Virus record (IMG/VR): IMGVR_UViG_3300021069_000062
Coordinates: 1-20,059 of that record
Reading direction: 5' to 3' (one strand)
DNA length: 20,059 nt
Origin: a virus
A model generated the notes under the pieces. That model saw nothing but the letters and a program-made list of their open reading frames with translations, was not told the origin of the DNA and searched no databases. Position 1 is the stretch's first letter; each line of letters opens with the position of its first letter. Below are positions 4,173 through 19,176 of the stretch, piece after piece. Position numbers and translations under genes: made by a program.

Positions 4173-5487
4173 AGTTTCTCAAAATAATCAGGGTACTATG
4201 GGTGGACTATCTGAAATACAAAAACAGATAGAAGAGATGATTCGTCAAGGAATACAAGTACCTGATAATATAAAATTAATACAAAACCCAGCACTTCAAC
4301 TTGCTGAATTACAGAAAATAAATGATGAAGCTAAAGTTGTTTCTAATGCTGCTGGTGAACTAGATCAGCAAACTCAAAAAGCTGTAAGTAAGCAGCAGGG
4401 TGAAATAGACCAAATGAAAAACATACAAACTGGAATAATTGCAAAAAGTAAACCATTTAATCTTAAAAAAGCTCAAATTGATGCTTTAGATCAATTCGCT
4501 TCCCAGAATACTGTAGAACCTTCCCAGAATAATCAACAAAGTAATATTTCTAAGTTGCAGGGTATGAAGTTTAACGGAGTTGAAGAGTTTGTAAAGGGAT
4601 ATTTAGATAAAGTAGATGAAATTAATGCTAGAAACGATATTTTGATGGCTGTAAGCTCTGCCGAAAATGTAGATAGCAGTATTGGAGAAAAAGTTAAAGA
4701 AGGGTTATCAATATATTATAAAGCAATAGGAGCGAAGAAAGATATGTCATTAAATGAAAAAGCTAACTTAGCTGACCACTTCTATAATTTACTACCTTCA
4801 GAAATGAAAATCGGCCCTTCCGACCGGGCTGAAGAGGGTATAATACCAAATGCCAATTATAAAGAAGAAATTACAGCTAAAATAAAAGACACAGAAGAAA
4901 GTATAAAGAAATTAGCTAAATCTAATCTACCTAAATCCAGCTTTAATTTAAATAAACAAGCTCAAGCTAAAACAGCAGAAAACATAATAATGTACGGACC
5001 ATCTGAAAAGAGATTCGATCCATTCTTGAGACAGCCCGTTTCTGATTGGCATATAGTTGAAAGAAATAAGGGTTACGGATTCGTAGTTGATGATGTATTT
5101 AATATTGACTGGGAATCAATCTGGCGTGGAAACATTATGGACAAATATTCTCGTCCATATAGAGATTCTAAAACCGGAGAATGGGTTGGTGGATACATTC
5201 AGAAGAGATTTGAAGTAGACAAATGGATTCCTGAAGGCAATAACTATCAGTTAAAGCCTGGTGAGCTAAGAAGGCCATACAACGCCTCTCAGGGAAGCTT
5301 AGAAGCAAGAATGGAAGAGCAAAGAAAAGCTGCATCTAAAGATTTAGGTTACGAACCAACTTCTGAACCAGAAACAACTAAATGGGATGAAAACGAATTA
5401 AGTGAAACTAAGGTTGCTAAGTCATTTAATTTAAATAAGTTTTCTTCTAAATGTGACACTTGCTCAACTTCTAAAAAAAAAACTTAA
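4165..5487 (+). CDS. Uncharacterised 440-aa structural-type protein, zero-frame part of a frameshifted gene
   Basis: The start ATG at 4165 overlaps the end of the previous gene by eight bases. It lacks a strong ribosome site, so coupling is likely; an in-frame GTG at 4138 is less plausible. The N-terminal 90 residues are Gln-rich and coiled-coil-like, followed by a helical middle (about 130-250). The C-terminal half is Trp/Tyr-rich (SDWHIVERNKGYGFVVDDVF, NIDWESIWRGN) and probably folded. The segment FNL(K/N)K occurs three times, at residues 98, 260 and 421. The frame ends just after CDTC and a ten-A run. A coding-like frame with no start of its own continues at -1 (see 5481-5909). Function is unknown; its position before the portal suggests a head or neck component. 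Confidence 0.6.
   Translation: MNKVSQNNQGTMGGLSEIQKQIEEMIRQGIQVPDNIKLIQNPALQLAELQKINDEAKVVSNAAGELDQQTQKAVSKQQGEIDQMKNIQTGIIAKSKPFNLKKAQIDALDQFASQNTVEPSQNNQQSNISKLQGMKFNGVEEFVKGYLDKVDEINARNDILMAVSSAENVDSSIGEKVKEGLSIYYKAIGAKKDMSLNEKANLADHFYNLLPSEMKIGPSDRAEEGIIPNANYKEEITAKIKDTEESIKKLAKSNLPKSSFNLNKQAQAKTAENIIMYGPSEKRFDPFLRQPVSDWHIVERNKGYGFVVDDVFNIDWESIWRGNIMDKYSRPYRDSKTGEWVGGYIQKRFEVDKWIPEGNNYQLKPGELRRPYNASQGSLEARMEEQRKAASKDLGYEPTSEPETTKWDENELSETKVAKSFNLNKFSSKCDTCSTSKKKT
5473..5482 (+). other. A10 run, candidate -1 frameshift or transcriptional slippage site
   Basis: Ten consecutive A are read as AAA AAA AAA A in the upstream frame, which then meets TAA at 5485. This contains the classical A AAA AAA slippery heptamer with the codons in phase. 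A -1 shift (or one extra A in the transcript) joins the 439 upstream codons to 142 downstream codons. I see no strong stem-loop just downstream, which favours transcriptional slippage, or a homopolymer sequencing error, over a pseudoknot-driven shift. Confidence 0.55.
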
Positions 5488-5929: not shown

Positions 5930-8900
5930 ATGCCTATAAAAAAAGATAACAACGGTAATAGAAAATCTGTATTTGCAACTGGTGGTTTTAATCAAAATGT
6001 TACAAAGAAAGAATCAGTCGGGCACTATGCAGCAAGTTCAGCTACAAAAGGTATAAAGTTAGCTCAATTTGCTGGTGGTTCAGATTCCAGAATCACAATG
6101 ACTCAACCAATGTTTTCTTCGCCACTTCATACGCCTCAAAATTGGCAAACTCCAAGTAAAAGAAGAGAAATATATCAACAGTGTCGTCATTTCTATAGAA
6201 CAGAACCTAAAATTGGTGCTGGTATCGACTTCTATTCGCAATTCAGCATGAATAATTTTAAGTTAGAATGTAAATCTAAGAAAACATTAAAGATATTCGA
6301 AAAAATAGCTAAGGATTTAAGGATAAATCACTGGTCTAAACTTATTAGTCACGAATATTTTATGTTGGGTGACGTTTTTGTTTTTACAGAAATAGAATGT
6401 CCAGCCTGTAATGGGACTGGAATGGATAAAGAAGGGAAAGTTTGTAATCATCCAGATGGAACTATAAAAAGAATAATAGTATTAAACCCAGATTGGATCG
6501 AAGTAAAGCAAAGTGTACTTGCTGGAGATCCTGTTATTGTATTAGTTCCTGATGAAGAATTGAAAACAATAGTGTCAAAAAGAGATCCAAAAGAGATATA
6601 TGACAGATTACCAAAGAAGTTAATAGAACTTGTTACATCAGGTAAACCTATACAGTTGTCTAACAGATGTGTCAGTCATTTAAAGCACAATGAGTGTCCT
6701 TATGCTGATTATGGAGTTTCCCTTATACAAAGATTGTTGACTATGTTGGCTTATAAGACAAAGTTAATAACAGCAAACTGGATTGTTGCTGAAAGATTAA
6801 TTCTACCTATTAGAGTTGTTAAAATTGGAGACAAAGATCGTCCTGCTACCGCCGAAGACATAGCAGATGTAGGTAATCAGTTATCTATGGTTGCAAACGA
6901 TCCTAATCAAACACTTGTAACGCATCACGCCTTTGAATATGAGTGGTACGGAGCCTGTTTTCCAGAAGATGAAAACATAGAAGTATTTACAGAAAATGGA
7001 TGGAAAAAACACCAAGATATACAAGAGAATGAAAAATTGGGGACAATAAATAGTTTAACTGGTAAATTAGAACTACAAAACTACATAGAAAAATTTGAAT
7101 ACGATTATGATTCAGATATTTATGGAGGTTTGTATAATTTTAAATCTAAAAGAATGAATATTCCGGTGACTCCAAACCACAGAATGTTTACCAGAAAGTC
7201 ATTAAAGCATAATTATGAAATAATTCAGTCTCAGGATGTTAAAGGGCATTATAAGATGTTGTCTCAAATAGAATGGGATGGTTTTATTCCTGAAAATTTA
7301 CCATATATGAATATAGACAAATTGAAACATCTAGCACTTGAAGAATTTTTAGAATTTTCTGGATATTACTTATCAGAGGGGCATTTGCAGATAGAAAGGA
7401 ATAAAGGACTAAGTGAAGGTAAGCAGGTAAGAGCAGTTGGAATTACTCAGAAAAAATACAGTAAGTGTTACAGTAAAATAGATAAAATAGTTTCAACCGT
7501 ATATCCTTCTTATTCAATACATAGTGATACAAGAGGCCCAATAGATATTGATACATTTGTTGTTAATTCTGCCGATATCGCTAGATTTATGGACAAGGAA
7601 TTTGGTCATGGAAGTGGAGAAAAGAGTATCCCTAAATGGATTTTAGAATTACCAAAAAAATATTTACAAATTATGTTTGATTCTATGATGCTTGGTGACG
7701 GTAATGTAATAAAAATGAATTGTGGAAGCAAATATAAATATTCTACAAAATCGAAAAAGTTAGCTGATAATGTTTTTGATATAGTTATGAAGTTGGGATT
7801 CAGTCCAAAGATCTCATTAGAGAATGGTAATCAATTAAAACAAAGAGGGGCTTGCTATAGAATTTTTTGGACAGATAGCAAAAGTGTAAATGAACAACAA
7901 ATAGGAAGAATAGAAAGACTTCCGTACAAAGGAAAAGTGTGGTGTTATTCCGTTCCTAATAAATTATTAGTTGTTAGATTTTATGGAAGAATGTTCGTGA
8001 TTGGAAATTCTGGAAAAATACACAACATTACAGCAGAGTTGGAATTCGTTGGAAAAGAAATACTTGACGGTTTGATGTTAAATCAATCTTTATTAAATGG
8101 TGAAATGACTTCGTATTCTTCGGCTCAAGTTGGTGTTGAAACTCTTATAAGGAGATTGGAAGGATGGAGATCTTCTTTAGCTGAATGGATTGAGAGTAGG
8201 ATATTTTTACCTATCGCTATGATGAGAGGTTTTGTAGACGAAGAAGAGTCTGCTGAACTTGGCGAAACAGTATACTTGTATCCAAAAATAAAGTGGAATG
8301 ATTTAAATTTAAGAGACAACAGTAGTCAGTTGCAGATGCTTATGCAGTTGCAAGATAAAAATTTAATATCTATACAAACCTTATTGTCTGAATTTGATTT
8401 AAACTACGATCATGAAGTTGAAAAAATGAGAGAAGAACAGATGATGATGAGTTCTCTGCCTGGTGCCGCTGCTGGCGGCGGGGGTGGAGGTATGGGCGGT
8501 GGACCACCTATGCCGCCGATGGGCGGTGGTGGTGGCGGCGGTGGTGGCCCTCCAGGTATGGATTTAGGTGGTGGCCCCGGCGGTCCTCCTCCAGGTGGAG
8601 ATATGGGTGCGCCTCCAGGTGGAGATATGGGTGCCGGTGCTGCACCGCCAGCAGGTGGCCCACCAGGCACAGCTACAGCCGGGTCTATACCTAGTAATTT
8701 TAAAATAACCAAAAGAGGTAAAGGAGCGAAAGAACCAGAAGCCGCACCTGTACCACCACCAACTTTTATAAAGTTAACCAAACTAGAACAACAGATGCAT
8801 AAAATTATACAATCTGCTAAGATTCCTTTGCAGCTATATGGTCAGTATCAAGTTAAAGTTGCTGGACAAGATCAACCTTACCTTATGGATTTCGCTTTTC

Positions 8901-9220
8901 CAACTTTAGGAATAGCGATAGAGGCAGACGGTGCCGCTTGGCATGAGAATGTAGAATCGAAAACTAGAGATAATGAAAGAGACAAAGCTTTAGCTAATTA
9001 CGGATGGAGAGTTTTAAGGTTTAAAGAAAAAGCCATAGAACAAAATCCAGGAGAAGTAGCTAAAATGATATTAGCTCATGTTAAAGACGCAGAAAAACGT
9101 AAACATAAAAGAAAAGCAAGTGGAGAAAGTCTTATAAAGGAAGCTTCTAATTTTACTGAAATGTATAAAGTTGAAATGGAAAACGATATGGGTTGGATTT
9201 TTTATATAGAGGAAAAATAA
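5930..9220 (+). CDS. Portal protein precursor with intein and C-terminal DUF559-like nuclease-fold domain
   Basis: The portal forms the ring at one capsid vertex through which DNA is packaged and to which the tail attaches. GGAG at 5920-5923 precedes the ATG. The N-terminal extein (residues 1-342) has portal-like features: REIYQQCRHFYRTEPKIGAG, the MLGDVFVFTE strand, and a long helical stem region. Residues 157-174 form a possible zinc knuckle (CPAC...CNH). An intein fills residues 343-693. The C-extein resumes at Ser694 with SGKIHNITAELEFVGKEILD and LIRRLEGWRSSLAEWIES. A Gly/Pro/Met linker (about 846-930) then leads to a DUF559/Vsr-like domain (about 955-1060). The spliced protein would have 745 residues. 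The portal call is firm by layout and context. The nuclease fusion is unusual. Confidence 0.82.
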   Translation: MPIKKDNNGNRKSVFATGGFNQNVTKKESVGHYAASSATKGIKLAQFAGGSDSRITMTQPMFSSPLHTPQNWQTPSKRREIYQQCRHFYRTEPKIGAGIDFYSQFSMNNFKLECKSKKTLKIFEKIAKDLRINHWSKLISHEYFMLGDVFVFTEIECPACNGTGMDKEGKVCNHPDGTIKRIIVLNPDWIEVKQSVLAGDPVIVLVPDEELKTIVSKRDPKEIYDRLPKKLIELVTSGKPIQLSNRCVSHLKHNECPYADYGVSLIQRLLTMLAYKTKLITANWIVAERLILPIRVVKIGDKDRPATAEDIADVGNQLSMVANDPNQTLVTHHAFEYEWYGACFPEDENIEVFTENGWKKHQDIQENEKLGTINSLTGKLELQNYIEKFEYDYDSDIYGGLYNFKSKRMNIPVTPNHRMFTRKSLKHNYEIIQSQDVKGHYKMLSQIEWDGFIPENLPYMNIDKLKHLALEEFLEFSGYYLSEGHLQIERNKGLSEGKQVRAVGITQKKYSKCYSKIDKIVSTVYPSYSIHSDTRGPIDIDTFVVNSADIARFMDKEFGHGSGEKSIPKWILELPKKYLQIMFDSMMLGDGNVIKMNCGSKYKYSTKSKKLADNVFDIVMKLGFSPKISLENGNQLKQRGACYRIFWTDSKSVNEQQIGRIERLPYKGKVWCYSVPNKLLVVRFYGRMFVIGNSGKIHNITAELEFVGKEILDGLMLNQSLLNGEMTSYSSAQVGVETLIRRLEGWRSSLAEWIESRIFLPIAMMRGFVDEEESAELGETVYLYPKIKWNDLNLRDNSSQLQMLMQLQDKNLISIQTLLSEFDLNYDHEVEKMREEQMMMSSLPGAAAGGGGGGMGGGPPMPPMGGGGGGGGGPPGMDLGGGPGGPPPGGDMGAPPGGDMGAGAAPPAGGPPGTATAGSIPSNFKITKRGKGAKEPEAAPVPPPTFIKLTKLEQQMHKIIQSAKIPLQLYGQYQVKVAGQDQPYLMDFAFPTLGIAIEADGAAWHENVESKTRDNERDKALANYGWRVLRFKEKAIEQNPGEVAKMILAHVKDAEKRKHKRKASGESLIKEASNFTEMYKVEMENDMGWIFYIEEK
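6956..8008 (+). mobile_element. Intein 1, LAGLIDADG type, in the portal gene (351 aa)
   Basis: It starts at Cys343 (CFPEDENIEVFTENGWKKHQ, block A) and ends at Asn693, followed by Ser694 (FVIGN|S). Block B is VTPNHRMF with Thr414 and His417. Two LAGLIDADG-like helices are present, FSGYYLSEG (Glu483) and FDSMMLGDGN (Asp590), and both carry the acidic residue expected of an active homing endonuclease. Block F is WCYSVPNKLLVVRF. The residue before the terminal Asn is Gly instead of the usual His, a variant found in other phage and polymerase inteins ending GNS. Splicing would join WYGA to SGKI. The boundaries are set by sequence pattern and by continuity of the portal. Confidence 0.9.
8588..8635 (+). 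repeat. 24-bp tandem repeat encoding PPGGDMGA twice
   Basis: Two adjacent copies of 24 bases agree except at the last base. They lie in the Gly/Pro/Met-rich linker of the portal gene, whose GC-rich DNA stands out from its AT-rich surroundings. The unit probably arose by slippage, and the linker may vary in length among relatives. Confidence 0.85.
8792..9109 (+). other. DUF559/Vsr-like PD-(D/E)XK fold domain at the portal C-terminus
   Basis: Residues about 955-1060 of the precursor follow the DUF559 pattern: a leading helix (LEQQMHKIIQSA), a strand with Asp987 (MDFAFP), then IEADGAAWH with Glu998, Asp1000 and His1005. Next comes RDNERDKAL (1013-1021), and last YGWRVLRF (1024-1031). DUF559 is a family of small restriction-endonuclease-fold proteins related to Vsr. 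Key acidic residues are kept, so activity is possible but not shown. It is in frame with the portal, with no internal start before it. Confidence 0.7.
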
Positions 9221-9660
9221 TGGAATATTTTAATTTATCAAAACTTGCAGCCTTTGGAAAACCTAAAAGAAAAAGAATTAAGGATCGAGGTATAAACTGG
9301 AAAGAAAAATATAGAGAAAGATCCGAACCTCTCAAGAGACGTTTTGATAAGACTATAGGACCAGGTAGTTATTATAGATGGGAAGGCCACGATTACACAA
9401 CTAATCATGATTATTTTATTGTTATTGGTCCAGCTAAAGAATCTTCTGGTAAAAAAGCATTTTTTGCCGGGATAAAAAAATTACCAGACGATTGGGAACA
9501 TAAGAAAGTATATGCTCCTTATGGGAAATATTTTTCTAATATAGTCTCTGCTTTGAGTTATGCTTCAAGTCATTGGGGTTTAAGATTTCCACCAGGTCAA
9601 AGAAATTATTCCACTAGAGATATAGCTGCTGTTGAGATACCAAGAAGGGTAAAAGGATAA
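9220..9660 (+). CDS. Uncharacterised small basic protein, 146 aa
   Basis: ATG shares its A with the portal stop (TAATG) and is preceded by AGAGG at 9208-9212, so translation is coupled to the portal; a TTG at 9193 is a weaker start. It opens with MEYFNLSKLAAFGKPKRKR, a very basic N-terminus that contains the FNLxK segment also found in the gene at 4165. The rest looks like a compact domain rich in Trp, Tyr and His (GSYYRWEGHDYTTNHDYFIV, SHWGLRFPPGQRNYS). There is no membrane segment or Cys. The family is not recognised. Coupling to the portal suggests a head or connector role, which is inference only. Confidence 0.6.
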   Translation: MEYFNLSKLAAFGKPKRKRIKDRGINWKEKYRERSEPLKRRFDKTIGPGSYYRWEGHDYTTNHDYFIVIGPAKESSGKKAFFAGIKKLPDDWEHKKVYAPYGKYFSNIVSALSYASSHWGLRFPPGQRNYSTRDIAAVEIPRRVKG

Positions 9661-9745: not shown

Positions 9746-10438
9746 ATGTCTCCAATTGATATCGGTTTAGCAGTAGGTGGTTTTATAGCAGCTATAATTA
9801 TCGTCTTTGGTGGCGAATTTATGGGCCTAACTAACTTCTTTAATGTTAAAGGCTTAATAAATAAACTAAAAGGCAAAAAAGACGAAGATAATGAAGACTA
9901 TACTAAAGAAGAATTTAAAATGTTTTTAACCGCCGATCTTAGATTACAGCAATTAATAACAGAATTAAGATTAGCTACCGGAGCGCACAGAAGTCACATT
10001 TTTATGTTTCATAATGGTGGAAAATATGCTTGCGATACCCCGATTCGTAGATTCTCTTGCTCTCATGAATCTTTAGAAGTCTCTTCTGGTATACAAAACA
10101 CACAAGAAAGACAAAATATGTTAACTTCAGCATTTCCTGATAAACTAGAAAGAATATTTAATCCAGCTTATGAGATTTACATGGTGGATGATCTTCATGG
10201 TGGTCCTTGTAGAAATTATATGAAAGCATTTAATACTTATGCTTTTTCCGCTGACTCATTGAAATACAACAGTTTATTTGTTGGTTTTGTTGGTTTGCAT
10301 TGGCAAAAAGAAGATTACGATAGCGAAACTCTCTCAAAATACAAAGAAGCTATAGATAAATATAAACCGTTAATTGAAGATGCTATGGTTAAAAAAGTAG
10401 AAGCGTTTAAAAAACATAATAAGAAAAGCATATATTAA
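9746..10438 (+). CDS. Membrane-anchored protein with possible GAF-like domain, 230 aa
   Basis: AAGGTG lies about 9 bases before the ATG. Residues 5-22 form one hydrophobic segment (IGLAVGGFIAAIIIVFGG), likely an N-terminal membrane anchor. A charged linker follows (KLKGKKDEDNEDYTKEEF), then a helix and a domain with AHRSHIFMFHNGGKYACD, IRRFSCSHESLEVSSGIQN, and a strand-rich end (YNSLFVGFVGLHW). The pattern of a helix, then a strand ending FHNGG, then KFS-x-x-xE-like and a final strand resembles GAF-like sensor domains in uncharacterised phage and bacterial proteins. This is a family impression, not a proof. Why a membrane-bound protein sits between portal and protease is unclear; it could act at a membrane-associated assembly site. 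About 85 bases of AT-rich spacer precede it. Confidence 0.5.
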   Translation: MSPIDIGLAVGGFIAAIIIVFGGEFMGLTNFFNVKGLINKLKGKKDEDNEDYTKEEFKMFLTADLRLQQLITELRLATGAHRSHIFMFHNGGKYACDTPIRRFSCSHESLEVSSGIQNTQERQNMLTSAFPDKLERIFNPAYEIYMVDDLHGGPCRNYMKAFNTYAFSADSLKYNSLFVGFVGLHWQKEDYDSETLSKYKEAIDKYKPLIEDAMVKKVEAFKKHNKKSIY

Positions 10439-10499: not shown

Positions 10500-13400
10500 A
10501 TGTCTTTATACAAAAAAGCAAAAGTAGATATAACAAACAAATCATTAGAACCACTGAACGTTCCACAGTGGGAAGAATACAATTTGGTAAAATTGGCCCA
10601 CAAAGTAAGTAGTGTTGAGAAAAACAACAACTATGACGTTGGTGGATTTGATATAAAGAAAGCTGTTAAAGAAAATCCAGAATTCTTATTCTTGAAGATT
10701 TTTGCGATTAAAGAAGATGAAGTAAATGACAATGGAGATTCTTTCCCTAAAGAAGAATTAAAGAAGTCAGCACACACTTTTGTTGGCGTTCCTATATTTT
10801 GCAACCATCAAAATGATGATATTGAAAAAGCTAGAGGAAAAGTTGTACACTCCTGGTATGAAGATAAAGCTGGTGGTATATTTATTATTGCGAAAATAGA
10901 TAGAGTTGCTTATCCTGCCTTAGCTAGAGGCGTAGAAGAAAACTATATAAATGGATGTTTTCCTCCAGATGCTCCAGTTTTGATGTCTAATGGAACAGAA
11001 AAATGTATATCTGATGTTGATTGTGGAGAATTTGTAATATCAGGAAAAGGAAATATAAGACGAGTTTTAGGAAAGAGACAAAAAGGATATAATCATCCAT
11101 TAATTAATCTTTCTGTCGAAGGATTGAATAGTGATATAAAATTAACAGAATATCATAATATTTATGTATATAGGACAAGTGAAAAGTGCCTATGTGGGTG
11201 TAATGAAGATATCTTTGATGTCAAAGATAAAAGAATAACAAAACAGACATTTACAAGAAAGTTCCTTACTGGTCACAATATGAAAGGCACAGAGTTGCCA
11301 TATGAAAATATACAAAAAATAAAAGCAAAAGATGTAAAGATTGGAGATTTGTTGATTGAGCCAAAATATACAAAAGAAAAAGAAAAAAATTATATCTCAG
11401 AAGATGAGGCATTTCTAATAGGTTTATTTTTAGCAGAAGGAAGCTTTGAAAAAAGAGAAGGAATAAGACATTCTGTTATTTTTAATTTTGGATCAAGCGA
11501 ACTTGAAACTCTAGCTAGTAAATGTTTTGATTTATTAGGTAAAGTTTTCTCTAATAAGGAAAACTCTCCAACAATAAATCATTATCCAGACTCATCACAG
11601 ACAAGAGTTTGTTTATACGGTAAAGATGTAGCAGCGTGGTTTTTAGATAAATGTGGAGAATATAGTTACGATAAAGTTTTAAATGAAAAATTATTAAATA
11701 TTGATAAAAATTTAACTGCTGCATTATTAGCTGGATATATAGAAGGAGATGGATATAATGTAAAAAAGAAAATTTATGGAGTTGCAACTGTTTCTGAAAA
11801 ACTAGCAAGCCAGCTTAGAATTTTGTTCTCTAAAATTGGAATAAGAACAAGATATAGAGTTGTAAAAAATACTGGTAAATGGGGATATAGACCAGTACAC
11901 GAAATAGTATTTGGATTAACCACATCTAAAAAACTTAGAGAAAAATTAATATACAAAAAAGCAAAAGAGAATGAATATAAACCTGCTGCATGGCACAACT
12001 TGGAAGATATAGTTTTAAGAAAGGTAACGGGTATACAAAAAACTGAATATAATGGAGAAGTTTACGATTTAGAAATAGAAGAAGACCATTCTTATTGTGT
12101 AAACCATATTATGGTTTCAAATACTTCGATGGGCTGCTCTGTAGATGTTTCTGTGTGTAATATTTGCGGATCGGCGGCAAAGACTGCCGAAGAATACTGT
12201 GACCATATAAAACATAGAAAAAATAAAACATTTACTGGTAAAGTTGAATTAGCTTATGGTAAAAACGGTATTAAAGTGCCAGGATATGATTCTTGCCCTG
12301 TTAAGTTCTCAAATTTAGACGAAGATGGAAAAATCATTCATAAAGAATCTAAAACATATGAACATAACTTTGGTATAAAGTTTATAGAAGATAGTTTAGT
12401 AGTTAATCCAGCCTGTCATGACTGTTTAGTACATGAAGTTTTCAATACTGAAGGTTTATCTAAGAAGGTGGCTAAGTTAGGAGAAACATTAAGTAACTGT
12501 CACAATGGAGCTTGCTCAATTTCAGATAATAAAAAAGTGGCTCAGGTTCAAGACAAGATAAATAAGATTTCTGGTGCTTTAGAAATCAAATTCTTAAATG
12601 ACGCAATGGATAAGATAGAACGTGTTGCTAAGTCAATGATGGCTCAGAAAGAACACATATCTATGGAATACGTTAGCGATTTAGTAGAAGTTATTGCAAA
12701 AATACAAGAATATGCTGATGAACTTATTGAGAATGGATATACGCAATTACCATCAATAGTTTCAGAAGATAATGCACCAATTGTTAATGCTGTAGCTCCA
12801 ATTAAACCTCAGCCAGTGCCACAAATGTCAAAAGAACCAGAAAATAATAGTAATTTAAACCTGGATATGGGCAGTTTGGGTAATGTTACAATGCCTAAAG
12901 CGGCCAGTTTAATAAATAATGAAAAAGAAAAAAAGGAATTTATAAATTTATTTATAAATCTAAAAGAGATGTTAAAAGTATTTTCTAATAGAGTAGAGAA
13001 TATTTACAAAGTTAGTCAGTTAAAAAACATAGAAAAGGAGTCAGATGTAATGTCTACAAAAAATAGCCAAAACGATTCACAAGAAAAAGTTGCCTCTCAT
13101 GATACTAACGTAGTCACTGAAAGACAGTTAGATAATGCGAAATTTACCGGAGAAAGAACTAACGATTCTCCAACCGTTGTTACTGAAAAACAACTAGATA
13201 ATCCAAAAGATGTAAATGTTACATCTACTGACTCTCCTCAAGAAAGAAGAGGTTCTTATGATGTTATAACTGAGAAGCAGTTAGACAGCATTAAGAATGG
13301 TTATGTCGTTCGTTGGAACGAATATCCTGATGTTATAACTGAAAAACAATGGAATGAAACCAGTCGTTTGGTTGGTTCTATTTTAGACAAAGACCAATCC

Positions 13401-16400
13401 ACAATAACCACAGAGAAACAACTTGATGATTTCAGAAGTCATCACAGTTTCCCTATTCATGCTGTAATAACTGAAAAACAGTTAGATGCTGCCAAGGGTG
13501 ATATTGTTAATCGTTGGGCCGATTCTAAAGAAATAGTTAAGACTGCTAAGAACATTTTGGCAGAAACTATTGTTAACTTTGGTAAAACTCCAAGCGAGAT
13601 AATCAATGCAGTTGAATATATAAATAAGAATGTTAAGAATTTGGATAAAGCCTCTTTCTTGACTTTAGTTAATGCTCTTCCTAATAAGAAAGAAAATAGA
13701 TTTGCTGAAACTAATCGTTATGGATATTTCTCTAAGGTAGCATCTGGTGTAAATACTCCTAATGCTATTGATTCTTTGATTTTGACAGTTAGTGAAAACT
13801 TACAAGGTTTCTCTACTGACAACTTATTCGAAGCTATGAAGGTTGTAACTTCTAGCGAAGAAGGTATGAAGATGGTAGAAGCTTCTGTTCAAAATGCTTT
13901 GAAGCAAAAAGAAAATGTAGTAACAACTGTAAATAAGAAATCAGATTTTGAATCTGCTCTTAAGTCTTTAGCCGCATCTGAAGCTCCTTCCGATGGTATT
14001 TATCAAATAGCTTCAGACCTTTCTGAAATTGGCGTTCCTTTAGAAAATAAGAGAGAATTCTTGAAGTCTGTTGCTAAGTTTGCTAGAAGTGAAATTAACA
14101 ACAAGAATATCAAAGTTGCTTTGACCGCTGTTGATGTAGATGAAGAAAACGGTTTAGTTGTTGCAACCATGAAAGATGTTAATGTTTTAAGTGCAGATGA
14201 AAAGATTGCTTTGGCGCAAATAAATCCAGGTTGGATGAAGCCAGGGGCAGATGGTTTTGATGACCTTCCTGATGCTTCTGAGGTTTATCCTGGAGAAGAA
14301 CAGACTGCGGTTAAAGATGGACTTCCAACTGATGCCGATATGAATAATATTCCAAATGATGGTTTTGAAGATGTGAGTTTGGCCGGCACGGTAAGCCCTG
14401 GAAGCTCAAATATGTCTGCTGAACAACAGCTTGAACAAATATTTAATGGCGGTGTAGCCGGAAACGGTCCTTCTAAGAAGTCTATAGACGCCCCAGAACA
14501 AACTGGAATTGAGCCAGATGGATTTGGTGAAGATAACAAGATGATGATGGCTGCTTCTACTAAGAGAAAGGCTATGGTAAAACAAGCTCAGATGTTTGGT
14601 GGACAAGGTGGTGCAGGAGTTGGTGGTGAAATCCCTGGTGGACCTTCTGGTGGAGCCGGTGCAGGTGCAGGAGCAACTTTACCTCAACCACCAACTGGTG
14701 GTCAGCCTCCTCTAGAGAGCTTTGAACAAAGTGATATGGGTCAAGGGTTAGAAGAAGGTGGTATGGATGAATTGAATGCGGTTCCTCCTGGTACCAAGTG
14801 TCCAGTATGTTCTAGTGATGACGTAGATGTTGTTTCTGGAAAAGGACAATGTAATAATTGCGGTTCTAAGTGGTGGTATGAATCTGTCGTACACATAACC
14901 AATGATGCTTCAAGACCAGATCATGAAAGTGAAGAAGCTGGTGAAGGATTTGCTTTACCTGAAGATGATGGTGCGGCTAAGGGTATGGAAGCTGCTGCTT
15001 CTTATAAGATTGTTGCTTTAGAGAAATTTTCTGCAACAACTCTATTAACTAAGACTGCAAGAGAAAAGATAAGCAAGAACAATATAAAGTTGGGTTCGGT
15101 AAGTCCTCTTACTGGTTCAACAAATACAATAGAAGTATCTGCTAATGAACACTTGTGTTTAGATACGGGTATTCCTTACAGCGTGAAGTTTGCTTCTGTA
15201 TCTGATAAGCCAAATGAAGTATATGCTACTTGGATATGGAATCCATTAACTAAGGTTAGTTGTGATTCTTGTTCTAGAGAAAAGCAGAACATCGTAAAGG
15301 CTCTTGAAAAAATGAACATAACTGAAGAACAGTTTGATTTCATGGATATCGCAACCAAAGGTAAGACAATATTGGCTATGAAAGATAAGGGTCTTTTAGG
15401 TTCTATTAAGACTGCTGGTAAAAAAGCATCTGCAATAGAAACTTACAAGAACACTTTCTCTAAAGTAGCTTCTAAGGATTTCCCATGCGAAATGTGTCGT
15501 CAGAAGTTAGCTAATAGATTTGGTGAAAATGCGGTTTGCTTGAGTGGACCTTATGAAGGTAAGCCTTTAGCTGATGCTATCTGTAATTCTTTAAGAGATA
15601 ATGGTGTATATTCTACCAAGTTAGCAATGTCTGTAGGCGAAGATTGGATGGAAAAAGATGCTCAGTCTGAATGTTTGCAAGATTATTTGAAGATTGGATA
15701 TAACTTAAGACAATCACAAACAATTTGTACATATATAAAGACTAAGTATGCTCAAATAGAAAATCAAATTTCTGAAGAGTTAGGTAGTGGTATTGATGAG
15801 AATCCAGAAGGGCCAGGTGGACCTGGTGGATTGCCAACATCTACTCCAGAAGTAACTACAGATATGCCAGAAGAAATAAGTCCATTCAATGATGAAGGGC
15901 AACCTGGAACAGTAAGCGTTGAACTTCCTCTAGACCTTTTGGAAAAATTAGATGCAGCAATTGATATCGCTAAGGGTGAAAATCCAGCCGAAGAAGAACA
16001 TCACAACATTGAAGTTCCAGAAGTTGAAGTAGAAGTTGAAATGCCTGGTAATGTTGCTGATACCGTAGATACAGTTGTTGATAAGGTTTTGGATGAAAAC
16101 TTAGGAACCGAATCTAATGGAGTGCCTGCGGCTCCAGTAGAAGAAAAACCTTTGATGGAAAATATCGTATCTCCACTGGTCGCTCCTGCTGCAATCGCTG
16201 CTCCTGCTGTGTCTGAAGTTGCACCAGCCGGTGGTGAAGTTGTTGAAATAGAAGTTACCGAAGAACCTTCTGAAGTTGTTGAAGAGTCTACAGAATCAAC
16301 TGATGATGAATCTGATGATGATGAATCTGATGATGATGAATCTGACGACGATGAATCTGATGAAGATGAATCTGATGAAGATAATAAGGATGAAAATTCT

Positions 16401-17615
16401 GAAGAAGAAAAAGAAGGAGAAGAAGAAAAAGAAGAGAATAATGATGAAGACGAAAACGATAATCCAGGAGTAACTAATAAAGATACTTCTAAGAAGAAAG
16501 TAGAAAAAGAAGGAGAAGAAGGCAACATGATAACCGAAAAAGAAGCTTCAACTATGCGTCCTGGATATATCCCAAGACAAGGTTCAATAAATGGCTTGAA
16601 TTTAAGCGGTGTTCTTGATGTTATAAATAAGCAGAAGAAAGTAGCCAAGGGATTAGAACAAGAAAATGTTCAAGATTCTAAGGATATTGGGAAGATAAAA
16701 GATGGAAAGACGATTGGAATTGAACAGCCTTTGAATGAAAAAGGGCCAAAGATTCCATCTAAGGGAGATGGTTCTAAGATTGGTGACGAACAGCCAGTTA
16801 AAACTAAAGAAGTAGATGTTCCTTCTGCTGATGCTAGAATTGGTGGAGAAAAGGATAATGATAAGGCAACTGGTGGAGATACAAGATTCACTGGCGGCGA
16901 AGAAGGGGCTGGTAATTTTTCTGAAAAATCTAAGTCTGCGTCTACAAAGAATCGCATGAACAGATTAGCAGACAGTATAATCCAAGCTTCTGAAAAGAAA
17001 GTTGAAGTTAAGGCTCCTCAAGATGACGCAGATGTAAAACCATACAGTAATGGAAAAACAATTGGCGAAGAAGAGAAGTTTAGTCCTGAAACTATAAAAG
17101 ATAAAGATGTAAAGAGCGATGGTGGATTTATCGGTAAGGAAAAAGAAACACTTAAAGATAAACCAAAGGATGCTCCAAGTATCCCAGCCGGTGGTGGAAA
17201 GTTAAAGACTGATACCAGCGATGCTGAAAAACAGAACGAAGTAAAAGGTACTACCATAGCGGAGTCCGAAGAAGTTAAGTTAGTTACTGCAAAGGCAACT
17301 ACAATCGCAGGCAGAATGTTAGAGGCTGGAAAAATAACAGTCAAAGACTTAGGCAGAAAGATTGACGAGTTCAAAGCATTAAAATTAGCTCAACTATCAA
17401 GTTTAGAACAGGATATATTTCCTGTAAAGAAAGGACTCGACGTAGCATCAGACGGTTTAGAGCAAACCGTAGTTATCGGTAATAAGGAAACTAAAACAGC
17501 TAGTGCTGATGTTAACCTTACTAAACAGCTAACTGAAATGTTCACTCTCGGTAAGAGAAATGAATTGGCTAGTGAAACAGAACATGAGTTTAAAAAGACA
17601 TATGGTAGAAATTAA
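10500..17615 (+). CDS. Prohead maturation protease-scaffold fusion precursor with intein, 2371 aa
   Basis: GGAG at 10491-10494 precedes the ATG. The N-terminal domain looks like a phage capsid maturation protease: FLFLKIFAIKEDEVNDNGD, then VPIFCNHQNDDIEKARGKV with probable catalytic His103. After an intein (153-541) it continues TSMGCSVD with probable catalytic Ser543. A Cys/His cluster (CNIC...CDHIKH) follows. Beyond about residue 600 it is scaffold-like: helical segments, a block of ITEKQLD repeats (871-996), Gly-rich linkers, a zinc ribbon (Cys1434, 1437, 1451, 1454), and further Cys pairs (CDSC, CEMC). Next are a Cys-x17-Cys segment (1725-1743), a (DDDES) acid tract and IGxE repeats. The spliced product would have 1982 residues, far longer than typical prohead proteases. 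A nested start at 13050 would give a separate scaffold, as for lambda C/Nu3. Confidence 0.8.
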   Translation: MSLYKKAKVDITNKSLEPLNVPQWEEYNLVKLAHKVSSVEKNNNYDVGGFDIKKAVKENPEFLFLKIFAIKEDEVNDNGDSFPKEELKKSAHTFVGVPIFCNHQNDDIEKARGKVVHSWYEDKAGGIFIIAKIDRVAYPALARGVEENYINGCFPPDAPVLMSNGTEKCISDVDCGEFVISGKGNIRRVLGKRQKGYNHPLINLSVEGLNSDIKLTEYHNIYVYRTSEKCLCGCNEDIFDVKDKRITKQTFTRKFLTGHNMKGTELPYENIQKIKAKDVKIGDLLIEPKYTKEKEKNYISEDEAFLIGLFLAEGSFEKREGIRHSVIFNFGSSELETLASKCFDLLGKVFSNKENSPTINHYPDSSQTRVCLYGKDVAAWFLDKCGEYSYDKVLNEKLLNIDKNLTAALLAGYIEGDGYNVKKKIYGVATVSEKLASQLRILFSKIGIRTRYRVVKNTGKWGYRPVHEIVFGLTTSKKLREKLIYKKAKENEYKPAAWHNLEDIVLRKVTGIQKTEYNGEVYDLEIEEDHSYCVNHIMVSNTSMGCSVDVSVCNICGSAAKTAEEYCDHIKHRKNKTFTGKVELAYGKNGIKVPGYDSCPVKFSNLDEDGKIIHKESKTYEHNFGIKFIEDSLVVNPACHDCLVHEVFNTEGLSKKVAKLGETLSNCHNGACSISDNKKVAQVQDKINKISGALEIKFLNDAMDKIERVAKSMMAQKEHISMEYVSDLVEVIAKIQEYADELIENGYTQLPSIVSEDNAPIVNAVAPIKPQPVPQMSKEPENNSNLNLDMGSLGNVTMPKAASLINNEKEKKEFINLFINLKEMLKVFSNRVENIYKVSQLKNIEKESDVMSTKNSQNDSQEKVASHDTNVVTERQLDNAKFTGERTNDSPTVVTEKQLDNPKDVNVTSTDSPQERRGSYDVITEKQLDSIKNGYVVRWNEYPDVITEKQWNETSRLVGSILDKDQSTITTEKQLDDFRSHHSFPIHAVITEKQLDAAKGDIVNRWADSKEIVKTAKNILAETIVNFGKTPSEIINAVEYINKNVKNLDKASFLTLVNALPNKKENRFAETNRYGYFSKVASGVNTPNAIDSLILTVSENLQGFSTDNLFEAMKVVTSSEEGMKMVEASVQNALKQKENVVTTVNKKSDFESALKSLAASEAPSDGIYQIASDLSEIGVPLENKREFLKSVAKFARSEINNKNIKVALTAVDVDEENGLVVATMKDVNVLSADEKIALAQINPGWMKPGADGFDDLPDASEVYPGEEQTAVKDGLPTDADMNNIPNDGFEDVSLAGTVSPGSSNMSAEQQLEQIFNGGVAGNGPSKKSIDAPEQTGIEPDGFGEDNKMMMAASTKRKAMVKQAQMFGGQGGAGVGGEIPGGPSGGAGAGAGATLPQPPTGGQPPLESFEQSDMGQGLEEGGMDELNAVPPGTKCPVCSSDDVDVVSGKGQCNNCGSKWWYESVVHITNDASRPDHESEEAGEGFALPEDDGAAKGMEAAASYKIVALEKFSATTLLTKTAREKISKNNIKLGSVSPLTGSTNTIEVSANEHLCLDTGIPYSVKFASVSDKPNEVYATWIWNPLTKVSCDSCSREKQNIVKALEKMNITEEQFDFMDIATKGKTILAMKDKGLLGSIKTAGKKASAIETYKNTFSKVASKDFPCEMCRQKLANRFGENAVCLSGPYEGKPLADAICNSLRDNGVYSTKLAMSVGEDWMEKDAQSECLQDYLKIGYNLRQSQTICTYIKTKYAQIENQISEELGSGIDENPEGPGGPGGLPTSTPEVTTDMPEEISPFNDEGQPGTVSVELPLDLLEKLDAAIDIAKGENPAEEEHHNIEVPEVEVEVEMPGNVADTVDTVVDKVLDENLGTESNGVPAAPVEEKPLMENIVSPLVAPAAIAAPAVSEVAPAGGEVVEIEVTEEPSEVVEESTESTDDESDDDESDDDESDDDESDEDESDEDNKDENSEEEKEGEEEKEENNDEDENDNPGVTNKDTSKKKVEKEGEEGNMITEKEASTMRPGYIPRQGSINGLNLSGVLDVINKQKKVAKGLEQENVQDSKDIGKIKDGKTIGIEQPLNEKGPKIPSKGDGSKIGDEQPVKTKEVDVPSADARIGGEKDNDKATGGDTRFTGGEEGAGNFSEKSKSASTKNRMNRLADSIIQASEKKVEVKAPQDDADVKPYSNGKTIGEEEKFSPETIKDKDVKSDGGFIGKEKETLKDKPKDAPSIPAGGGKLKTDTSDAEKQNEVKGTTIAESEEVKLVTAKATTIAGRMLEAGKITVKDLGRKIDEFKALKLAQLSSLEQDIFPVKKGLDVASDGLEQTVVIGNKETKTASADVNLTKQLTEMFTLGKRNELASETEHEFKKTYGRN
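10956..12122 (+). mobile_element. Intein 2, LAGLIDADG type, in the prohead protease (389 aa)
   Basis: It starts at Cys153 (CFPPDAPVLMSNGTEKCISD) and ends at Asn541 before Thr542 (HIMVSN|T). Block B is LTEYHNIYV with Thr216 and His219. LAGLIDADG-like helices are LIGLFLAEGS (Glu313) and LLAGYIEGDGYN (Asp417), both with acidic residues. Block F is VYDLEIEEDHSYCV. The residue before the last Asn is Ser instead of His. Between blocks is an inserted possible zinc module: CLCGC (230-234) and, about 24 residues on, FLTGHN (256-261). Splicing would join ENYING to TSMGC, restoring the protease active site. Confidence 0.9.
13033..13052 (+). promoter_or_regulatory. Internal ribosome binding site and in-frame ATG inside the protease-scaffold gene
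   Basis: AAAAGGAG (13033-13040) stands nine bases before an ATG at 13050 that is in frame with the long gene. Strength and spacing match the sites of the other genes here, for example those at 2126 and 18292. Confidence 0.65.
13050..17615 (+). CDS. Nested scaffold-like product from internal start, 1521 aa (putative)
   Basis: This frame lies wholly inside the protease-scaffold gene and shares its stop. It would begin MSTKNSQNDSQEK and go straight into the ITEKQLD repeats, so it lacks the protease domain and intein but keeps the whole assembly region. In phage lambda the scaffold Nu3 is made the same way from inside protease gene C. The sequence evidence is the strong internal ribosome site and a change in character at this point, from Asn/Lys-rich helices to repeat-containing sequence with more regular codons. 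Whether it is translated cannot be seen. If it is, scaffold could outnumber protease and would not depend on splicing. Confidence 0.5.
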   Translation: MSTKNSQNDSQEKVASHDTNVVTERQLDNAKFTGERTNDSPTVVTEKQLDNPKDVNVTSTDSPQERRGSYDVITEKQLDSIKNGYVVRWNEYPDVITEKQWNETSRLVGSILDKDQSTITTEKQLDDFRSHHSFPIHAVITEKQLDAAKGDIVNRWADSKEIVKTAKNILAETIVNFGKTPSEIINAVEYINKNVKNLDKASFLTLVNALPNKKENRFAETNRYGYFSKVASGVNTPNAIDSLILTVSENLQGFSTDNLFEAMKVVTSSEEGMKMVEASVQNALKQKENVVTTVNKKSDFESALKSLAASEAPSDGIYQIASDLSEIGVPLENKREFLKSVAKFARSEINNKNIKVALTAVDVDEENGLVVATMKDVNVLSADEKIALAQINPGWMKPGADGFDDLPDASEVYPGEEQTAVKDGLPTDADMNNIPNDGFEDVSLAGTVSPGSSNMSAEQQLEQIFNGGVAGNGPSKKSIDAPEQTGIEPDGFGEDNKMMMAASTKRKAMVKQAQMFGGQGGAGVGGEIPGGPSGGAGAGAGATLPQPPTGGQPPLESFEQSDMGQGLEEGGMDELNAVPPGTKCPVCSSDDVDVVSGKGQCNNCGSKWWYESVVHITNDASRPDHESEEAGEGFALPEDDGAAKGMEAAASYKIVALEKFSATTLLTKTAREKISKNNIKLGSVSPLTGSTNTIEVSANEHLCLDTGIPYSVKFASVSDKPNEVYATWIWNPLTKVSCDSCSREKQNIVKALEKMNITEEQFDFMDIATKGKTILAMKDKGLLGSIKTAGKKASAIETYKNTFSKVASKDFPCEMCRQKLANRFGENAVCLSGPYEGKPLADAICNSLRDNGVYSTKLAMSVGEDWMEKDAQSECLQDYLKIGYNLRQSQTICTYIKTKYAQIENQISEELGSGIDENPEGPGGPGGLPTSTPEVTTDMPEEISPFNDEGQPGTVSVELPLDLLEKLDAAIDIAKGENPAEEEHHNIEVPEVEVEVEMPGNVADTVDTVVDKVLDENLGTESNGVPAAPVEEKPLMENIVSPLVAPAAIAAPAVSEVAPAGGEVVEIEVTEEPSEVVEESTESTDDESDDDESDDDESDDDESDEDESDEDNKDENSEEEKEGEEEKEENNDEDENDNPGVTNKDTSKKKVEKEGEEGNMITEKEASTMRPGYIPRQGSINGLNLSGVLDVINKQKKVAKGLEQENVQDSKDIGKIKDGKTIGIEQPLNEKGPKIPSKGDGSKIGDEQPVKTKEVDVPSADARIGGEKDNDKATGGDTRFTGGEEGAGNFSEKSKSASTKNRMNRLADSIIQASEKKVEVKAPQDDADVKPYSNGKTIGEEEKFSPETIKDKDVKSDGGFIGKEKETLKDKPKDAPSIPAGGGKLKTDTSDAEKQNEVKGTTIAESEEVKLVTAKATTIAGRMLEAGKITVKDLGRKIDEFKALKLAQLSSLEQDIFPVKKGLDVASDGLEQTVVIGNKETKTASADVNLTKQLTEMFTLGKRNELASETEHEFKKTYGRN
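13110..13487 (+). repeat. Six ITEKQLD-type repeats in the scaffold region
   Basis: Segments VVTERQLD, VVTEKQLD, VITEKQLD, VITEKQWN, ITTEKQLD and VITEKQLD start near 13110, 13176, 13263, 13332, 13404 and 13464, spaced about 20-29 residues apart. A seventh related copy (MITEKEAS) is at 16527. Sequence between copies is not conserved, so the motif itself is under selection. T4-type prohead proteases cut after Glu in I/L-x-E, which several copies contain. Confidence 0.8.
16302..16382 (+). repeat. 15-bp tandem repeat encoding (DDDES)n acidic tract
   Basis: About five units of DDES, DDDES or DEDES, in 15-base steps with synonymous changes, are followed by a Glu/Lys/Asp-rich tract to about 16470. 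The encoded protein is strongly acidic and surely disordered. Acidic tracts of this type in scaffolds may repel DNA or bind basic capsid faces; that role is inference. Confidence 0.85.
16512..16529 (+). promoter_or_regulatory. Possible second internal start in the scaffold region (weak)
   Basis: GGAG (16512-16515) and AGAAGG (16517-16522) precede an in-frame ATG at 16527 that would give a 362-residue product beginning MITEKEAS. The Glu-codon-rich context makes such purine tracts likely by chance, so this is much less secure than the site at 13033. Confidence 0.25.
16701..17144 (+). repeat. IGxE repeats near the scaffold C-terminus
   Basis: Six short segments recur with variable spacers: TIGIEQ, KIGDEQ, RIGGEK, RFTGGEE, TIGEEE and FIGKEK. 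They lie in Lys/Asp/Gly-rich, probably disordered sequence before the folded-looking C-terminus (from about 17270). They look like repeated short binding motifs; the partner is unknown. Confidence 0.6.
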
Positions 17616-18298: not shown

Positions 18299-18306
18299 AA
18301 ATGAAA

Positions 18307-19176
18307 ATGAGTTTTAATAAAAATAATTTGACTGACAAAGAAAAAGAAGATGTAATAGCTATTGCTATGTCTACCGATGAAGGTAGAGTAGCCTTGGCTC
18401 AAGCAATGGTTGAACCTATTCGTAGAAGTTTGGAATTCCAAGCTGTAGGTCGTAAGTGCTTGATGGTTGACGAATTACCACAGGGCGCATTGGCTCGTTA
18501 CGAAAGAGACGTAGCTTCCATCGCAACTGTTATATCTCGTCGTGGTGGCGTTCCTGACCAGATTGTAGAAGGTGAAGAAATTCTCGTTCCTACATTCGAA
18601 ATCGCGGCTCACCCAACTGTTAAGCTTTCAGAAATCAAGGCTCGTAGATTCTACATTGTAGACCGCGCCCAGATCAAGGCAAAAGAAGCGATTCAAAAGG
18701 AAGAAGATACAAATATTTTCGCCGCATTGCTCGCTGCTGCAACCTCTTCTGGTAACGTTGTTGACAACTTCGGAACCTTGAGCGTAGCATCTTTGAACAC
18801 CGCTTTCCGTTACATCGAGACGCATGACCTCGTTGCAACTAAGATAATCATGCACGCAACCCAGTTCGCTTCAGTCCGTGCGTTTGGTAAGACCTTCTAC
18901 GACGAAGCAACTCAGAGAGAAATCATCACAACCGGCCTTTATGGTCACTTGTATACCGCTGATATCCATGTATCTTCTCGTATGCCAGTCGATGTTGTGC
19001 TTGTCATAGCTTCTCCTGATACCGTTGGTGCGTTCCCAATTAGACAAGATATTACCGTACTTCCAGCAGACGATCCTAAGAAATTAAGATTAGGATGGGT
19101 CATCTACGAAGAAATCGGGATAGTGATCGTGAACGACTACGCAGTAGCAAGAATCAACGTAAGCTCTGCAACCTAA
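18307..19176 (+). CDS. Major capsid protein, HK97-fold type, 289 aa
   Basis: This forms the capsid shell. The start at 18307 is chosen over 18301 by the distance to AAAAGGAG. A helical N-terminus (TDKEKEDVIAIAMSTDEGR) precedes segments typical of large-phage capsid proteins: GALARYERDVASIATVISRR, EEILVPTFEIAAHPTVKLSE, KEAIQKEEDTNIFAALLAAA, then AFRYIETHDLVATKIIMHAT and a final strand set (GWVIYEEIGIVIVNDYAVAR). At 289 residues it is short but within range. Its codons favour CGT for Arg and C-ending codons more than upstream genes do, consistent with high expression. It follows the scaffold and decoration genes and ends the transcript at a strong terminator. I see no N-terminal propeptide of HK97 length. 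The fold is inferred from pattern and position. Confidence 0.78.
   Translation: MSFNKNNLTDKEKEDVIAIAMSTDEGRVALAQAMVEPIRRSLEFQAVGRKCLMVDELPQGALARYERDVASIATVISRRGGVPDQIVEGEEILVPTFEIAAHPTVKLSEIKARRFYIVDRAQIKAKEAIQKEEDTNIFAALLAAATSSGNVVDNFGTLSVASLNTAFRYIETHDLVATKIIMHATQFASVRAFGKTFYDEATQREIITTGLYGHLYTADIHVSSRMPVDVVLVIASPDTVGAFPIRQDITVLPADDPKKLRLGWVIYEEIGIVIVNDYAVARINVSSAT

Follow-up and report, generated by a model that had tools for sequence, protein, structure and literature searches.

The portal gene of a 20,059-nucleotide virus record (IMG/VR IMGVR_UViG_3300021069_000062; the whole stretch is referred to as the window) encodes a portal protein that continues, in the same reading frame, into a nuclease domain of the DUF559 family. 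We regard it as virtually certain that this portal-nuclease fusion is real. Both parts are of known kinds; their lasting union, in which the active site is kept intact, was encountered in none of the isolated phages tested and nowhere in the literature searched. According to the usual view, portals are rings and valves with no enzyme of their own, and to our knowledge a genome-processing enzyme function is not known for any portal. Here the portal may itself be an enzyme, in that about a dozen active nucleases at the inner mouth of the channel would process each genome during packaging or be ejected with it, a proposal that we put forward tentatively; the function has a reasonable chance of being new. 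If the domain is active, the machinery of packaging or ejection would include an additional enzyme in a lineage that is widespread and has records of 300 to 550 kb, and one would have to ask how a genome can persist next to a portal nuclease. As a single domain, it lends itself to direct testing.

Organization of the portal gene

The window is spanned by a head-gene module consisting of upstream genes, the portal gene, a prohead-protease-like open reading frame (ORF), and the gene for the major head protein (positions 18301-19176; phrog_2522). The portal ORF (5930-9220, plus strand) codes for 1,096 amino acids, is interrupted by an intein, and is open throughout, so that portal, linker, and C-terminal domain share one frame, as the earlier note had read it. 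The N-terminal extein (residues 1 to 342; 5930..6955, plus strand) matched the portal family phrog_16240 with an E value of 8e-41. It is followed by the intein (residues 343 to 693 in the numbering used here; 6956..8008, plus strand), which starts with Cys, ends with Gly-Asn, precedes a Ser, and shows a weak match to LAGLIDADG_3. Its assignment is based on the homologue L010, which has no intein at the matching point, between YEWYGA and TGKIHN. This intein, which had previously gone unmentioned, sits at the junction of clip and stem. The remainder of the core, from stem to crown (8009..8449, plus strand), is 62 to 66% identical to its relatives, and after splicing the window portal comprises 745 amino acids. 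It is homologous to the portals of L010 and of Bacillus phage G; the L010 portal in turn matched phrog_16240 with an E value of 2e-43, and its fold, featuring wing, stem, clip, and crown, resembles those of the lambda, T4, HK97, GTA, and other portals with Z scores of 16 to 20. A MuF domain was not matched in the window portal ORF.

Family, fold, and active-site residues of the C-terminal domain

The C-terminal domain (residues 944 to 1065; 8759..9124, plus strand) was assigned to the DUF559 (Vsr/EDxHD) type on the basis of Pfam matches, an AlphaFold2 model, and its invariant residues. It matched DUF559 (PF04480) with 48.6 bits at a cut-off of 20.6 (E = 8.1e-13) and also reached the cut-off of REase_MTES_1575 (PF18741); all 75 of 75 relatives matched PF04480 at E <= 0.01. 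The Pfam family Vsr (PF03852) was not listed for the window domain, was matched at E <= 0.01 by 2 of the 75 relatives, and gave 16.3 bits for L010 versus a cut-off of 27. The AlphaFold2 model of the domain, computed with 75 relatives, had a pLDDT of 90.2 and displayed the Vsr/restriction-endonuclease fold, with matches to NGO0050, a DUF559 protein (3hrl; Z 13.2, rmsd 1.9 over 93), the EDxHD homing endonuclease I-Bth0305I (3r3p; Z 12.9, rmsd 2.5 over 96), and the mismatch endonuclease Vsr (1cw0; Z 10.7, rmsd 2.2 over 100). The best Foldseek match was PvuRts1I; the fold relatives include this modification-dependent enzyme as well as AbaSI, and FASTKD4 was also among the structural matches. The DUF559/Vsr-like nuclease fold that the earlier note had proposed for the portal C terminus was thus recovered from both sequence family and structure. 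Family and fold are shared with known DUF559/REase_MTES_1575 proteins such as NGO0050, which in this search were free-standing or occurred in other contexts, whereas here the domain is fused to a portal. Vsr is alike in fold, but its Pfam cut-off is not reached by the portal domain. The likeness to I-Bth0305I extends to a profile match (E = 6e-7) and to a conserved Glu, Asp, His, Asp pattern, for which the assignment of the letters EDxHD to individual residues is our own inference.

Asp987, Glu998, and Asp1000 as well as the motifs RDNERD and GWRVLRF, all named in the earlier note, are present in the window domain at the residues given there, and conservation of the acidic residues, which the note had proposed to check, was borne out among the relatives. 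In 122 distinct fused domains, whose identity to that of the window falls to about 31%, Glu953, Asp987, Glu998, His1005, and Asp1014 are invariant, as are Arg1017, Asp1018, Gly1025, Trp1026, and Arg1030; position 1000 is occupied by Asp in 118 domains and by Glu in another 2, i.e., acidic in 120 of 122. The median dN/dS of the domain was 0.098, compared with 0.077 for the portal core. In seven phages (L016, L019, L023, L028, L039, L046, and L077), an intein is inserted directly after Glu998 of the E-x-D-G motif (E^C...HN^CDG), so that the active site of the nuclease becomes complete only after splicing. Since inteins are, as a rule, retained at sites that are conserved and important for function, their insertion in E-x-D-G is a separate piece of evidence that this motif matters. 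Taken together, these features strongly suggest an intact nuclease; the domain is very probably catalytically active and would be expected to cleave DNA in a metal-dependent manner. The reverse view, already raised as a DNA-binding relic, is that the domain serves as a noncatalytic DNA-binding or structural module. This fold can lose catalysis, as RAP domains illustrate, and a basic motif of the KRG/KKG type in the tether of many relatives would suit DNA binding; with the catalytic residues invariant in 122 of 122 domains, a dN/dS of about 0.1, and inteins placed within the motif itself, we nevertheless consider a relic improbable.

Distribution and inheritance of the fusion

Viral contigs were scanned with the portal core and the domain, followed by ORF and HMM analysis. 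A single-sequence query with the C-terminal domain of the window found no match among viral sequences, whereas a query with an alignment was successful. In 129 of the 148 distinct portals with a readable core end, a DUF559 domain was present in the same ORF, so that the fusion is more than a chance occurrence; other portals with the same C terminus, for which the earlier note had suggested a search, thus do exist. The remaining 19 are accounted for by 13 members of the phage G clade, 4 portals cut by contig ends, L084/L207, and L080, a record with broken frames. In L084/L207, a TGA codon lies in the linker (4950-4952) and the domain is open in the next ORF, which may reflect a natural split, an error, or readthrough. 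Hence, every complete portal of the clade carries the domain (129/129), as opposed to none in the sister clade, to which Bacillus phage G belongs (0/13), and no domain-free portals were found scattered inside the fusion clade. Of the named records whose portals are related, Bacillus phage G, Tunturiibacter phage Tunturi_5, Virus Rctr197k, LR745208, and Mycobacterium phage Myrna have no nuclease domain in the portal. Among named portals, gp14 of phage G comes closest, with 34% identity in the N-terminal part, and likewise has a Gly/Pro tail, but differs in having no nuclease domain; a Gly/Pro-rich tail is also present in the domain-free portals of Rctr197k and Myrna. In a relative of phage G (L272:3135-6182), the portal ORF continues into sequence resembling the neighboring gene (gp15-like), another natural lengthening of the portal tail.

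The fusion clade is a large group of uncultured bacterial viruses, mostly huge, with records of up to 548 kb; among the isolated phages that were checked, none had the fusion. A scan of a genome collection yielded one locus. The fusion portal of L163 (JAFDWS010000002.1, 138237-154653) is located on a 1.36-Mb contig of an Armatimonadetes metagenome-assembled genome and resembles the 479-kb virus record L188 at 89% identity, which points to either a giant provirus or a mis-assembly. No description of a portal-DUF559 fusion was found in the literature searched, which covered a minority of subscription papers, and the judgment that the arrangement is not a standard one is supported.

Twelve of 14 large fusion records contain exactly one domain of this type. 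In the records G025 and G026 (L287, L288), a second DUF559 domain occurs in a separate ORF of about 303 amino acids beside the portal one. Pairwise distances of domain and core were closely correlated (Mantel r = 0.946, with 0 of 999 permutations as high). The sequences indicate that the domain was acquired once, before the radiation of the clade, by the portal of one uncultured large-phage lineage and has been vertically inherited since; according to the simplest reading, it was added at the base of the lineage onto a flexible tail that already existed. Hits of the scan outside portals were intein-borne or free-standing DUF559 endonucleases. In L157, L158, and L160, the gene for a MuF-like head-morphogenesis protein contains an intein whose endonuclease is a DUF559 domain. 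Capture of a homing-type endonuclease, from an ancestor of the homing-endonuclease/Vsr type, is a plausible source of the portal domain, and the fusion has the appearance of such a nuclease domesticated into a part of the virion. It could also be argued that the domain has remained a selfish homing endonuclease and serves to spread the portal gene or DNA close to it, as I-Bth0305I is among the closest solved folds and DUF559 serves as an intein endonuclease in the MuF-like head proteins of L157 and L160. Yet the domain occurs in every complete member of the clade and in none of the sister clade, is single copy in 12 of 14 records, and is co-inherited with the core, while inteins show a patchy distribution across these ORFs (detected in 42 of 129, at several sites, with 0 to 3 per relative); a domain universal in the clade is in this respect unlike a mobile element. 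Moreover, a region for recognition of a long DNA site was recognized neither between portal and domain nor in the short, poorly conserved C-terminal tail (9125..9220 including the stop codon, plus strand). In contrast to I-Bth0305I, the portal domain is neither mobile nor patchy, shows no recognizable extended DNA-recognition region, and is fused to a virion protein; continued homing appears very improbable.

Position of the nuclease domain and proposed role

Portal core and nuclease domain are connected by a Gly/Pro-rich flexible tether (8450..8758, plus strand). Its length in the window is about 100 residues, rather than the approximately 80 given in the earlier note, and includes a basic stretch with a KRGKG motif (8711-8725). 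In 129 relatives, the tether has a median length of 114 residues (range, 73 to 199) and a median Gly plus Pro content of 42%, and 79 of the 129 possess a basic motif of the KRG/KKG type. The model of the intein-free L010 portal features a confident core (residues 87 to 507), a disordered tether (507 to 603), and a folded domain extending to residue 722 or thereabouts. The L010 core could be aligned with T4 gp20 as far as residue 515 of 524, i.e., to the end of the crown, which in the T4 portal lies farthest inside (PMC4493910). Since the core aligns to the end of the T4 crown, the tether should start inside the capsid, and the nuclease is predicted to hang off the C-terminal crown on the capsid-interior side. 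This position disagrees with the DNA entry point originally envisaged for the domain, as the portal C terminus belongs to the crown in the capsid interior and not to the outer entry face (PMC4493910).

The best explanation, although we hold it to be slightly less likely than not, is a packaging-time nuclease at the inner portal mouth. Judging from solved portals, about twelve nuclease copies on flexible Gly/Pro tethers would extend from the portal crown into the capsid interior, where they could sample the DNA at the inner mouth while packaging proceeds and introduce nicks or cuts at sites of a limited kind, such as branches, flaps, mismatches, aberrant ends, or a specific sequence; the presumed outcome is a genome packaged in a clean state. 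Specificity would have to be restricted because an unrestricted nuclease next to the packaged genome would destroy it. That the domain acts on DNA being packaged is a possibility of which we are slightly less confident still. T4 endonuclease VII, which is associated with packaging, works with the portal gp20, and releases stalled branched DNA, provides a precedent (PMC10893049), but it is a separate protein of another fold that acts outside the head, whereas the portal domain is covalently attached and predicted to be inside.

The main competing explanation is that of an ejected effector: the neighboring prohead protease would cut the tether, and the freed nuclease would stay in the capsid, enter the next cell together with the genome, and attack host or competitor DNA there. 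The interior position of the domain, the long and flexible tether, and the conserved protease gene beside the portal are in line with this scenario. A protease homologue was found close to the portal in 256 loci; in the window, the protease-like domain (phrog_18299, head maturation protease, E = 1e-7) forms the start of a long ORF (10500-17615, plus strand) that also matches Intein_splicing and is followed by a small gene. MuF toxins, in which C-terminal effectors are similarly hung on a portal-associated head component, have been proposed to be delivered in such a way (PMC5576092); the present fusion differs in that the portal itself is the fusion partner, there is no MuF domain, and the domain is universal in its clade rather than polymorphic. 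Delivery as an effector would further be restricted to about twelve copies at most, the domain evolves slowly, unlike polymorphic toxins, and the protease adjoins the portal also in phage G, which has no such domain. No immunity partner was identified. The two small genes between portal and protease-like ORF (9220-9660 and 9746-10438) are conserved in no more than 6 to 7 loci and hence do not point to a partner gene. Overall, we regard an ejected effector as rather unlikely. Appreciably less likely is a defensive function before head closure, in which portals that are unassembled or still assembling would cleave the DNA of the host or of rival phages within the infected cell. While the conserved active-site residues and the modification-dependent PvuRts1I and AbaSI among the fold relatives would fit, portals are late products, the task would be better served by a free nuclease, and defense gives no reason for the invariable fusion to the portal. 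A second intein of the window (10956-12122) is located inside the prohead-protease-like ORF, directly 5' of a TSMGCSV stretch that resembles the catalytic Ser motif of the protease.

Terminase and resolvases of the fusion clade

Matches to RuvC were limited to phage G and one relative, i.e., to 2 of 3 sister records tested. Among 14 fusion records, which may be incomplete, EndoVII was present in 2 and RusA in 4, whereas 8 had no match to RuvC, EndoVII, or RusA over the cut-off or at an E value of 0.001, which might hint that the portal domain takes the place of a resolvase in these 8; T7 EndoI gave no match over the cut-off. A debranching role of the portal domain would thus be partly redundant with the EndoVII or RusA-like resolvases of 6 of the 14 large records. 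A nuclease at the portal would also be well placed to replace a lost terminase nuclease and make the headful cut if TerL were without one. However, TerL homologues are present in nearly all viral records of the fusion clade that were tested, and wherever the Asp, Asp, and Asp-Asp nuclease motifs could be read in a copy, they are retained, which argues that the portal domain does not make good a lost terminase nuclease; with its location on the capsid side also speaking against a headful cut, this explanation is exceedingly improbable. In L177 to L181, the TerL gene is split at the Walker A lysine by long insertions, which are probably inteins.
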